From Nitrosomonas sp. (lineage in GTDB: Bacteria > Pseudomonadota > Gammaproteobacteria > Burkholderiales > Nitrosomonadaceae): 42,155 bases of DNA. This document shows, piece after piece, positions 32,127 through 36,344 of this stretch; within the stretch, counting starts at the first letter, position 1; each line of letters begins with the position of its first letter. The DNA lies in assembly GCA_021774155.1 (NCBI GenBank), contig JAJFJH010000116.1:1-42155 (forward strand), in the 5' to 3' direction. Position numbers and translations under genes: made by a program. The notes below the pieces were generated by a model. It made no database searches, was not told where the DNA came from, and saw only the letters and a list, made by a program, of their open reading frames with translations.

Positions 32127-32264
32127 AATCAACAGCCCTTCCTTATCGGGCAAAAAACTCTCATTAGTTTATATAGAACAACAGAAGATCAAGCACCTAT
32201 GTGCTACTAGAAATAATGCACTGCCTGAGAAGTATCTTAATTGGTAAGATTGGCTGGATACATT

Positions 32265-32303
32265 AATAAACAACTCCGCGGCAACGCTGCGGGGTTGTTT
32301 ATT
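32265..32303. terminator. Bidirectional intrinsic terminator between purD (+) and the peroxidase cassette (-)
   Basis: aataaacaactccgc-ggcaacgct-gcggggttgtttatt: 15-bp stem with a single G-U type mismatch, A-rich/T-rich arms on both strands. Confidence 0.8.
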
Positions 32304-32334
32304 GGAAACGTCTATGCTTCTGAAGAAAGAACAA

Positions 32335-33168
32335 TCAGGGACTGAGCAAAGGACCCAGTCGGGACCGTCGCGGAAAAAGTATGTAACGTCCGATCTTAAG
32401 GATTAACCATAATCCACTTTTGTTCTTTTTGTACTCACGGTCAGTTGCCTCAAGGTCAATGTGAGCAGGAACCTTGGCTAATATACCTGACTTTTCACCC
32501 ACAGGCAGCGTGCCCTCCCTGAGATTACGACGTCGCTCGACAATTCTCTCAAAAAAAGGCACTTCACTATTGAAAAATTCCCGAATCAATTCGGGCGTAG
32601 CGTGCTTGACGCCGTCCCGGTCAATCTGCCCGCAAAGAGTATCGAACCCCTGCCACTGAACATGACCGCGAAAGCGAGCCGTAAATCGATCACGCGCACT
32701 TTTCACTGTACGAATGCCATCCCACGCTGAGTAAGGCTCCGTATCTTGCGTCGAAATAAAAACTGCAAGCACTTTATCAGTAATACGTTGGTTTGGAACA
32801 CCCAGCTCCTTTGCGATTCCCTCTAGATGCACAATGAAACGCTCCAGCTGAGCCTCGTCAACCCCGGTCTCAACATTGAAAACGCGACTTGAACAGGCCC
32901 CCTGCCCCCAGCCTTTCACACAGGCCTCAATGTCCGTCTCGTCGGGTTTTGATCCCGTCTGATCTTGAATGCCGGTGCGCGCTAAAAAACTGAGAATTTT
33001 CATCCATATGCTACTGGCTAAACCAAGGCCATCTGGCCCGAAGATTGCATCGGAGGAAGCCTTGGTAACGATCCCTTTTCCATTTCCTGACGGCCAAACA
33101 TGCCTCTCTAGCCCAGCCTTCAGTGGACATCCGGTGGTATCTGAATTCTCTGGAATATGACTGTTCAT
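32335..33168 (-). CDS. Uncharacterized protein; possible divergent Peroxidase_2 (chloroperoxidase/UPO-like heme-thiolate) homolog
   Basis: 277 aa; N-terminal GCPLKAGLERHVWPSGNGKGI has the spacing of the UPO Cys-Pro heme-thiolate segment; later FRGHVQWQGFDTLCGQIDRDGVKHATPELIREFFNSEVPFFERI resembles the family C-terminal half. CDS reality supported by length and operon context; family call is a hypothesis. Confidence 0.5.
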   Translation of the reverse strand: MNSHIPENSDTTGCPLKAGLERHVWPSGNGKGIVTKASSDAIFGPDGLGLASSIWMKILSFLARTGIQDQTGSKPDETDIEACVKGWGQGACSSRVFNVETGVDEAQLERFIVHLEGIAKELGVPNQRITDKVLAVFISTQDTEPYSAWDGIRTVKSARDRFTARFRGHVQWQGFDTLCGQIDRDGVKHATPELIREFFNSEVPFFERIVERRRNLREGTLPVGEKSGILAKVPAHIDLEATDREYKKNKSGLWLILKIGRYILFPRRSRLGPLLSP

Positions 33169-33355
33169 AGTATCTCCTTGAATATAGAGTTTCGATTGGA
33201 GCAGCGGAAAAACAAAGACCTGAGTCCTTGATCCTACAGCGTTAATTATCAGGAATCTTCTCGCGTATATTTTAGAAGTTTACGGAAGATAGTGCACATA
33301 TATCATTAGGGCAAACTCGACCAATCTCAATGATTCGGACCATGCCAAGTCCCCG

Positions 33356-34870
33356 CTAGGTTGGGTCAATAATACCGCCCGCAATCATTTTTAACGCCGT
33401 AATACTTGGAATGAAGAAATAATCACCACCACGTGTTTCAACTAAACGCGGGATATTGTTCACAAAATGTGGTGGTTTACCTGAACCGGGCTCCACTTCA
33501 AATACGACTTTCCCTGGGCACTTAGCGCCGTGATTACCCAGCAGAACATCTTTATCATTGCCCTGCTTAAAGTCATTGGCATAGTTGATCCATTGCTGCT
33601 GAACAAACTCAAACTGTCGTTTAATGTCTGCATTTAATACCATGAAGATAATGCCGTGATTACCATCATCACTCGTTTGATCTTTAGCTTTACCGTAGGG
33701 CAAGCCACGACGTAAAATCCGGCGACGATCAACTAGTGCACCTGGTGTGTTAAACGCATCTTTTACACCATATTCTAAAGAACCACGCGGGTTAATACGG
33801 CGCATATGGGCGCTTACTGGACATTTTGCGCCCTCTATATCTTCATTATAAGTAAAATCAGTCAACATTTTTTTCTGAGTAGGGACATCTGCCGCTGCAA
33901 ATTTCTTATCCCATTCCGCTTTACTTGCTTCATCCGGTGTATGCACCAGTGGTGCACCGTTATCTCGCCATCGGCCTGAAAACTTCGCCGCTAACAGCTC
34001 TTTTCCACCAGGAAACACTTTGCTTTGTTCATCTAAAAACTTGTTAAAAGTTCCGACATTCTGATGCAATTTACGATAAACCATGTAGGTCGCATTATTA
34101 GATAGTAGATCAGGCCTTGGCGCGGTCTTTGGATACTCCATGGCTTCATCAATATGACCCAGAATAAACTCACCTGTCGCTAGCGGCACCCACCCGCCTT
34201 CACGGGTTAGTTTTCCACGCCCGATAACACGTTTCTCGTTATTTGTTTGACCTTCAAATACTGGGTCGCCAATACCGTCTGTATAACCAAAGTGTTCTTT
34301 AGAGGAAGGCGTAATACCGTCTTCTTCATAAAGTATGCTGGCATCTTGATAGGGCAAATCATCACTTGGATTACCAAATGCATCTTCACCACGATGACCT
34401 TTTAATAAGGCCACGCCACCAGATGCGTCAATTTGTTGGCTGACCCATTGATAACGCTCCTCAACATCTTCAACGGACTTACCATTAATCGAAATCCAGA
34501 TATGGACAGATTCTTGCCAGATCTTATCCCAATGCTCGGGATCGCTTGGGCCATCATCACCTAAAATATCTTTTCGCTTACTCATACCCATCACAAAATC
34601 TGAGGGAAAACCGATTAATGATGCGGTAGGCAGTTCTAAAGCCCGCAACCCTGAAAAAGTAAACGCTATATTCGTGGTAACCGATGGCGCTGAATTTTTA
34701 TTCCATCTTTCTGCGGAAGTGACTTTCGAGGTGATTCTAGCTACAAAGTCTCTGCCTTTGTCACCATTATCAACGCGCAAAAAAAGATAACGCGCTTTGA
34801 AAAAACCGAAAGAGCCATAAGCTTTAACAATGTTTCCTTGTATATCCGTTAAGTCTAAATTCTGTGTCAT
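33356..34870 (-). CDS. Dyp-type peroxidase (large cytosolic-type)
   Basis: 504 aa; DLTDIQGNIVKAYG, GYTDGIGDPVFEG (GxxDG), GEFILGHIDE, CPVSAHMRRINPR (proximal His), GGDYFFIPS; no signal peptide. Confidence 0.95.
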   Translation of the reverse strand: MTQNLDLTDIQGNIVKAYGSFGFFKARYLFLRVDNGDKGRDFVARITSKVTSAERWNKNSAPSVTTNIAFTFSGLRALELPTASLIGFPSDFVMGMSKRKDILGDDGPSDPEHWDKIWQESVHIWISINGKSVEDVEERYQWVSQQIDASGGVALLKGHRGEDAFGNPSDDLPYQDASILYEEDGITPSSKEHFGYTDGIGDPVFEGQTNNEKRVIGRGKLTREGGWVPLATGEFILGHIDEAMEYPKTAPRPDLLSNNATYMVYRKLHQNVGTFNKFLDEQSKVFPGGKELLAAKFSGRWRDNGAPLVHTPDEASKAEWDKKFAAADVPTQKKMLTDFTYNEDIEGAKCPVSAHMRRINPRGSLEYGVKDAFNTPGALVDRRRILRRGLPYGKAKDQTSDDGNHGIIFMVLNADIKRQFEFVQQQWINYANDFKQGNDKDVLLGNHGAKCPGKVVFEVEPGSGKPPHFVNNIPRLVETRGGDYFFIPSITALKMIAGGIIDPT

Positions 34871-34930
34871 GATTAAACTCTCGTTGATGTGTTTACAAAA
34901 TTTTGCGATTTTTTATATAGAAAGCTAAGG

Positions 34931-35668
34931 TTAAGGTTTACACTGCCCTGGCACCCAAGAGGGCCCGCTTAAGTTGCTTGGCTGCACTTGTTCAATAAAA
35001 GCTCTATAAGCTTGTTGCAAATCCGCTGCACTTTTACCTTGATTAGCCGCCGCAAATTTTGAAAACTCCTGCTTTAGATAAAGTGCTTTAAGCTGCTCTT
35101 GTAGAGAATCATCCGTTGAGCCATTAAAAAATAATGCAGAATTAAGTTGGCATCGTTTCATGTAACTAATAAAGCTATTACTATCTGTCACTCCCTCAAA
35201 AGCCACGCAGTTTTCCCAAATATAACGAACATCACGTTGTTGCCCGCGATCATTATAAGACCACTTATCCCACATACCTCTTAAATACGCATCTAAGTCA
35301 CCATGAAAATTACTAGAGAATACGAGATATTTAGATTTCAACTGATCTTTTTGTGGCAACGCACCCAAACGCGCCTTTTCTGAAATAATAGAAGTAATTT
35401 CAGAAAAATTAAAAATTGAGTCGCTGCCCGGTAACGATTCATAAAAAACATTATCCAATACAAACAAACGCGCCAAATAAGTATTAGGTACCTTGGCTAA
35501 TGGACTTTCTTCGTGAATAGGTAGCCGCAAACAACGCTCGCGTGTGATATCTGCAGATGACTTGCCATCTACGATACGATTAATAATCGGGCAAAGAGTC
35601 GTTAATGCCGTTGCATTACCACTCTTATTTGGCTTTAGAAAAACATTTAAAGTATTCATGAATCCCAT
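34931..35668 (-). CDS. Uncharacterized protein, paralog B of the DyP-linked pair
   Basis: ORF 34931..35722; start reassigned to ATG at 35668 (MGFMNTLNVF..) because of AAAAGGATA RBS-like sequence just upstream, which also removes the overlap with the preceding gene. Contains KSKYLVFSSNFHGDLDAYLRGMWDKW. Confidence 0.75.
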   Translation of the reverse strand: MGFMNTLNVFLKPNKSGNATALTTLCPIINRIVDGKSSADITRERCLRLPIHEESPLAKVPNTYLARLFVLDNVFYESLPGSDSIFNFSEITSIISEKARLGALPQKDQLKSKYLVFSSNFHGDLDAYLRGMWDKWSYNDRGQQRDVRYIWENCVAFEGVTDSNSFISYMKRCQLNSALFFNGSTDDSLQEQLKALYLKQEFSKFAAANQGKSAADLQQAYRAFIEQVQPSNLSGPSWVPGQCKP

Positions 35669-35687
35669 GATAATTATCCTTTTAACT

Positions 35688-36344
35688 CTAGTGATTATGA
35701 CTGCTTTCATGTGCTCCCGCATGACGCACTTTAACCGCCAAAGCAGCCAAGCTCACGATTGGTGTATGGCTCATTTCACCAAAATCATGCTGCAACTGAT
35801 TTAATAAATTATTGTAGTCTTTAAGAAATTCATCGGGATCTTTATTGCTGGATGCGGCATTGAAATCAATCAACGCTTTTTTGACATTCTTAGCAGACTT
35901 CACATCATTTGAGGCCGCCATTGGATAAGCATTATAGTAATGCGAAGTATCTATCTGATTGTGCTGAATGTAGTTGTGAAATGGCGTTAAAGGCACTGAT
36001 TTTGGGTAACGAACATTCATTTTCCAAAAAAGATCAAGGCCAGAGGGAATGGCGAAGGTAAATGAGTCAACGTATTGATCCCAACTACCGTTGAAATTAC
36101 TAAAGAACAACATGTAAGAATATTTAAGTTCCTCTTTAGGTTGGCTTGAATCAAGATGTGGAAATTTTCCCTTTGGGATAATAACCCAACGGGCATAATG
36201 AATCAGAGAAAGGGTCAACAAACCATTAAGGACATTGGGCACTAAAAGTGCGGCTTTAAAGATCAACCAATTCAACCATGCTTTGTACCAAGGTATCGGG
36301 GTTATAACATTCATGGCATAAGCCTTTCCGGCTATATTTGACAT
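35688..36344 (-). CDS. Uncharacterized membrane-associated protein, paralog A of the DyP-linked pair
   Basis: 218 aa; predicted N-terminal hydrophobic segment; YSYMLFFSNFNGSWDQYVDSF shared with the neighbouring gene. Confidence 0.8.
   Translation of the reverse strand: MSNIAGKAYAMNVITPIPWYKAWLNWLIFKAALLVPNVLNGLLTLSLIHYARWVIIPKGKFPHLDSSQPKEELKYSYMLFFSNFNGSWDQYVDSFTFAIPSGLDLFWKMNVRYPKSVPLTPFHNYIQHNQIDTSHYYNAYPMAASNDVKSAKNVKKALIDFNAASSNKDPDEFLKDYNNLLNQLQHDFGEMSHTPIVSLAALAVKVRHAGAHESSHNH

Follow-up and report, generated by a model that had tools for sequence, protein, structure and literature searches.

The DyP locus of a Nitrosomonas genome

The window, a 42,155-nt stretch of DNA, derives from a Nitrosomonas-type genome whose best neighbour genomes are also Nitrosomonas. 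Four co-directional genes on the minus strand, which the first-pass annotation had proposed to form a peroxidase cassette, were recovered as open reading frames at the positions it had given: gene A (35688..36344, 218 aa), gene B (34931..35668, 245 aa), a gene for a dye-decolorizing peroxidase (DyP; 33356..34870, 504 aa), and gene C (32335..33168, 277 aa). The gap before nagZ, put at about 500 bp in that annotation, measured 539 bp. The module is flanked by nagZ-acpS-pdxJ-era on one side and by the convergent genes purD-purH-dusB on the other. The convergent ends of purD and C are separated by a terminator-type hairpin (32264..32304) that had been described as strong and bidirectional, and folding energies compared with shuffled sequence agreed with this for both strands (-26.8 kcal/mol, z -8.2 on the plus strand; -19.1 kcal/mol, z -6.3 on the minus strand). 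Gene order is identical in Nitrosomonas sp. OFTM113 (L023; era-pdxJ-acpS-nagZ-A-B-DyP-C-purD-purH-dusB), and A, which contains IHYARW...LFFSNFNGSWDQY, has a dN/dS of 0.03 relative to its counterpart at this locus. PADLOC returned nothing.

Ribosome-binding sites were found before A (AAGGAGA), before C (AAGGAGA), and before an ATG of B at 35668 (AAGGAT), but none precedes the first ATG of B (35722). The start of B was consequently moved, and B most likely begins at 35668 to give a 245-aa protein that does not overlap A. The 187-bp gap between DyP and C contains a weak hairpin followed by a T-run (33213..33230, minus strand), a possible partial terminator whose folding was not significant (z -1.3), and co-transcription of C with DyP is therefore unproven.

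The peroxidase had been recognized from its GxxDG and HMRRINPR motifs, and profile searches corroborated this identity, with PF21105 (DyP_N) and PF20628 (Dyp_perox_C) both matching above their curated cut-offs. FGYTDG, which holds the GxxDG Asp, HMRRINPR, and RRILRRG are conserved in 76 homologs, the first two being largely invariant. With the GxxDG Asp, distal Arg, and proximal His all present, the sequence is that of a C-type (class V) DyP, and the protein is predicted to bind heme and to have peroxidase activity. Its best match among solved structures is DrDyP of Deinococcus radiodurans (DR_A0145, PDB 8RE2/8RE3, C-type/class V; E 4e-57), although the GxxDG motif ends in Met in DrDyP and in Gly in the window DyP.

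Two known DyP arrangements differ from this locus. In DyP-encapsulin cargo systems the DyP likewise has a dedicated neighbour protein, but the partner in the window belongs to another, unnamed family, and the absence of an encapsulin shell gene, already remarked upon in the first-pass annotation, extends to the whole window genome, which gave no match to PF04454 whereas three control genomes did. The EfeUOB-type DyP (EfeB, PF04261) shares the DyP superfamily with the window DyP; PF04261 has no match in the window genome, and its loci lack A and B, as detailed below.

A and B accompany DyP_N-type DyPs

To examine conservation of the locus, one genome per species was scanned, the query being an alignment of A-type proteins; this yielded 453 confirmed relatives, and the counts given here come from 80 of these 453. 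At three of the 80 loci the contig stops before DyP, and in all 77 with sufficient contig, A, B, and DyP occur in this order on one strand (76 plain, and one with B split into two open reading frames). These loci span Pseudomonadota, Acidobacteriota, Cyanobacteriota, and Calditrichota, and the trio is also present on a Granulicella plasmid and in a genome of the same genus as the window. Since similarity to A determined which loci entered the scan, and Nitrosomonas and Oxalobacteraceae dominate among them, an additional random draw of 399 Pseudomonadota genomes, which includes the window genome and its congener, was made free of that bias. PF21105 DyPs were present in 18 of these genomes, 16 of which had an A/B-family protein immediately adjacent to the DyP or fused to it (nine A+B pairs, four proteins of a 'single' type, and three of fusion type). 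With the same flank length, none of 30 loci encoding control PF04261 DyPs had an A/B-family protein (Fisher one-sided P = 7e-11, or 5e-10 when the window and its congener are left out). The two strong DyP_N DyPs with no A/B gene within about 5 kb (L103 and L104) form a separate branch of their own on the DyP tree.

Gene-neighbourhood analysis of DyP homologs had been named beforehand as the check on which the cassette proposal should stand or fall, and co-occurrence with A/B was upheld in both samples. Nearly all sampled DyPs of the DyP_N type, across several phyla, are thus accompanied by members of an unnamed protein family, sometimes as a fusion, and A-B-DyP is almost certainly a conserved functional module. 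We found no description of this association in the open-access literature, although subscription journals or association databases may hold one.

The A/B protein family

A and B had been described as paralogs that could not be assigned to a family with certainty, and their paralogy holds: BLASTP aligned them at 22% identity over 123 aa (E 2e-8), profile-profile comparison gave a probability of 98%, and no Pfam or NCBIfam model matched A or B, or indeed C, above its cut-off. HHalign further related A to the second A/B-type domain of the natural fusions (fusion 2) at 98.8%, and the 'single' proteins to fusion 2 at 99% and to fusion 1 at 95.5%; fusion 1 compared directly with A was not significant. 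By these profile comparisons A, B, the 'single' proteins, and the fusion domains are one family. HHalign detected no homology between this family and DyP, the P450s, the catalase-related proteins, or C, and sequence homology of A/B to the DyP barrel itself was thus unsupported.

PDB profile searches with A/B returned nothing significant. The AlphaFold model of A, built from 28 sequences, had a low pLDDT of 56, too poor for a fold to be named, and a best Foldseek E of 0.6, i.e. no significant structural match; the predicted order of its elements is compatible with the beta-alpha-beta-beta-alpha-beta fold of a ferredoxin-like alpha+beta barrel, and the weak Foldseek matches include dimeric ferredoxin-like proteins. 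Two Cys of B, in ENC and KRCQ motifs, are invariant in 79 of 79 homologs and could have a structural or redox-active role. A search of viral contigs found no relatives of B.

The subtype of A/B protein tracks the DyP tree. When 50 DyPs were placed on a tree, one well-supported branch (SH-aLRT 99) separated those with A+B pairs from all others, and 4 changes sufficed to explain the four partner states, compared with 22 in shuffles. In addition, several genomes encode the components as one polypeptide. A 998-aa protein of Rhizobium (L020) has the order Fus1-TM-Fus2-DyP, that is, an A/B-type domain, membrane helices, a second A/B-type domain, and DyP, and proteins of Sulfitobacter and Pararhizobium (1620 and 1423 aa) have a P450 in front of the same arrangement. 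Such P450-Fus1-TM-Fus2-DyP polypeptides, encoded at L016:2562-7424 and L017:2661-6932, carry cytochrome P450 as their sole annotation. In Skermanella, the fusion parts are present as three adjacent genes.

Gene fusions are classical evidence for the joint action of proteins that are separate elsewhere, and the natural fusions of A/B with DyP therefore point to separate A/B and DyP proteins acting together. Given the near-universal adjacency, the matching of subtypes on the DyP tree, and these fusions, A/B and DyP probably form a physical complex.

The fourth position is exchangeable

The proposed four-gene cassette stood only in part, in that A-B-DyP is fixed and the fourth position is not. 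Among 83 loci, the fourth gene was a P450, usually together with a GST-like gene, at 24, a catalase-related gene at 29, and C at only 3, and no fourth gene was recognized at 27. The fixed unit is therefore the three genes A-B-DyP, with P450 plus GST-like, catalase-related, or C as the fourth. At least 3 kb was available on each side in 16 of the 27 loci lacking a recognized fourth gene, so the fourth enzyme is non-obligatory or may be encoded elsewhere. At the same nagZ site, sister Nitrosomonas have P450-GST and the window has C. In the window genome the module P450 has no close copy, the closest P450 being only 23% identical, and a search of it for the catalase-related protein, run with no positive control, gave no match.

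Among 22 full-length P450s near the module, 21 (that at L005:10404-11600 and those of 20 further loci) carry Pro where the I-helix acid would stand, in the sequence GAIPTT or, once, GAIPTI, and the fused P450s have VPTT or GPTT at this site. A P450 at L087 was rejected as a module member; it lies on the opposite strand, has a canonical GTVDTT I-helix, and is probably unrelated. Absence of this acid is a typical feature of P450s that work with peroxides or rearrange hydroperoxides and do not activate O2. The composition of the I-helix thus suggests that the module P450s are peroxide-driven or isomerase P450s, and the loss of the acid is a hint, not proof, of a chemistry shared through peroxide. 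That P450, catalase-related protein, and C replace one another in a single slot also points toward the class of substrate.

Other genes also occur nearby. Genes for patatin, thioesterase, a SnoaL-like protein (ester cyclase), or 3-hydroxyacyl-CoA dehydrogenase are present at some loci, and at L005:12656-13432 and seven further loci the GST-like gene is followed by a conserved 250-aa protein that by eye resembles a YiiX-type NlpC/P60 hydrolase.

Gene C

C is a real gene, as it is under purifying selection (dN/dS about 0.10 relative to the sister locus). Among 369 genomes of the class, it was found only in the window genome. C also occurs in a Methylococcaceae genome, upstream of A, on the opposite side of the unit from its place in the window. 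Its identity to the window protein is 72%, against 65, 50, and 62% for A, B, and DyP, and for this reason C appears to move between modules by transfer. These same comparisons bear on whether C might simply be an unrelated gene that came to lie next to the trio, leaving A-B-DyP as the sole unit. The 187-bp gap with its hairpin and the occurrence of C at only three loci are in keeping with that explanation, but C again adjoins A-B-DyP in Methylococcaceae, on the other side and at higher identity than its neighbours, and it occupies the exact slot of the P450-GST genes of the sister species, which together render a chance neighbour improbable.

The first-pass annotation had called this protein 'UPO-like', a label that was not borne out: PF01328 gave no match at E<=10, and Cys14 is replaced in the L091 homolog, where the GCP of the window protein, containing the candidate heme-ligand Cys of a PCP motif, reads EYP. 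C could nonetheless be a divergent heme-thiolate peroxygenase with the UPO/chloroperoxidase fold, as its CP...H..WPSGNGKGI by eye loosely resembles the start of a UPO and as it swaps places with heme enzymes. The loss of the Cys in L091 and the lack of a PF01328 match in the window genome argue against this, as does the lack of one in 399 Pseudomonadota genomes, where the controls were also silent. A PDB profile search with C found no relative, and we regard a peroxygenase as very improbable. An AlphaFold model of C from only three sequences (pLDDT 37) was too poor for a fold to be named.

Proposed role of the module

We consider the best overall explanation, to which we assign a probability of roughly 0.55, to be that DyP works with dedicated A/B partners and with an exchangeable fourth enzyme that handles peroxide. 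In this model, A and B would bind DyP as a complex, which in the fused forms would probably lie near the membrane, and would set the heme state of DyP, bring it to its substrate, or both. They would thereby scaffold or activate DyP, or place it at the membrane, and couple it to the fourth enzyme. That enzyme, be it C, a catalase-related protein, or a P450 lacking the I-helix acid, may act on the peroxide or hydroperoxide of DyP, either upstream or downstream. That it shares hydroperoxide chemistry with DyP is put forward tentatively, at somewhat less than even odds.

Another possibility is that the module serves oxidative-stress defence, merely destroying peroxides, with A and B as accessory or membrane-tethering subunits. 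Catalase-family, GST-like, and katG neighbours would fit such a role, but a P450 is an odd partner for detoxification and the closest DyP of solved structure performs poorly as a peroxidase at neutral pH (PMC10820274), so that, while a serious contender, this explanation seems to us rather doubtful.

Alternatively, the module could serve the biosynthesis or rearrangement of lipid or organic hydroperoxides, with DyP making or activating a hydroperoxide that P450, the catalase-related protein, or C rearranges, much as in lipoxygenase-catalase-related or dioxygenase-P450 fusions. Those fusions, which belong to oxylipin pathways, likewise pair or fuse an oxidative heme or iron enzyme with a P450 or catalase-related partner, and thus with the same pair of partner types, but their core is a dioxygenase or lipoxygenase, whereas here it is DyP with A/B domains (PMC13049297, PMC5617202). 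The GAIPTT-type P450s that alternate with catalase-related proteins, and the patatin, thioesterase, SnoaL-like, and dehydrogenase genes at some loci, also favour this pathway, but no gene of the lipoxygenase or cyclooxygenase type was spotted among the annotated loci. Moreover, DyPs are not known to act as dioxygenases, and many of the bacteria with the module have few polyunsaturated fatty acids. A pathway of this kind is accordingly unlikely. The odds are similarly against a broader proposal, in which C-type DyPs would not stand alone as peroxidases but would be subunits of a DyP-A/B complex that supplies, or is supplied by, a second, exchangeable heme enzyme. Bacteria would then have their own equivalent of the dioxygenase-P450 and lipoxygenase-catalase-related pathways, and C would be a novel type of enzyme in the exchangeable slot.

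Returning to the model of dedicated A/B partners, the near-constant adjacency or fusion of A/B, combined with an exchangeable second oxidative enzyme, suggests that C-type DyP works in a complex. This bears on the natural role of DyPs. DrDyP at pH 7.5 is six-coordinate low-spin and inactive, and its inactivity at physiological pH led the authors to suggest a role for partner proteins; their paper mentions neither operon nor catalase (PMC10820274). The DrDyP gene (L018:4908-8141) has an A/B-family gene upstream, as in the window, and a catalase-family gene downstream, and it differs in having one 'single'-type A/B protein where the window has the A+B pair. Absence of the A/B partner may be why the purified DyP looks inactive.

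A further variation among 'single' proteins was seen in Sinorhizobium (L008:5359-6270), where a second A/B protein of this type and a NIPSNAP protein adjoin the DyP.
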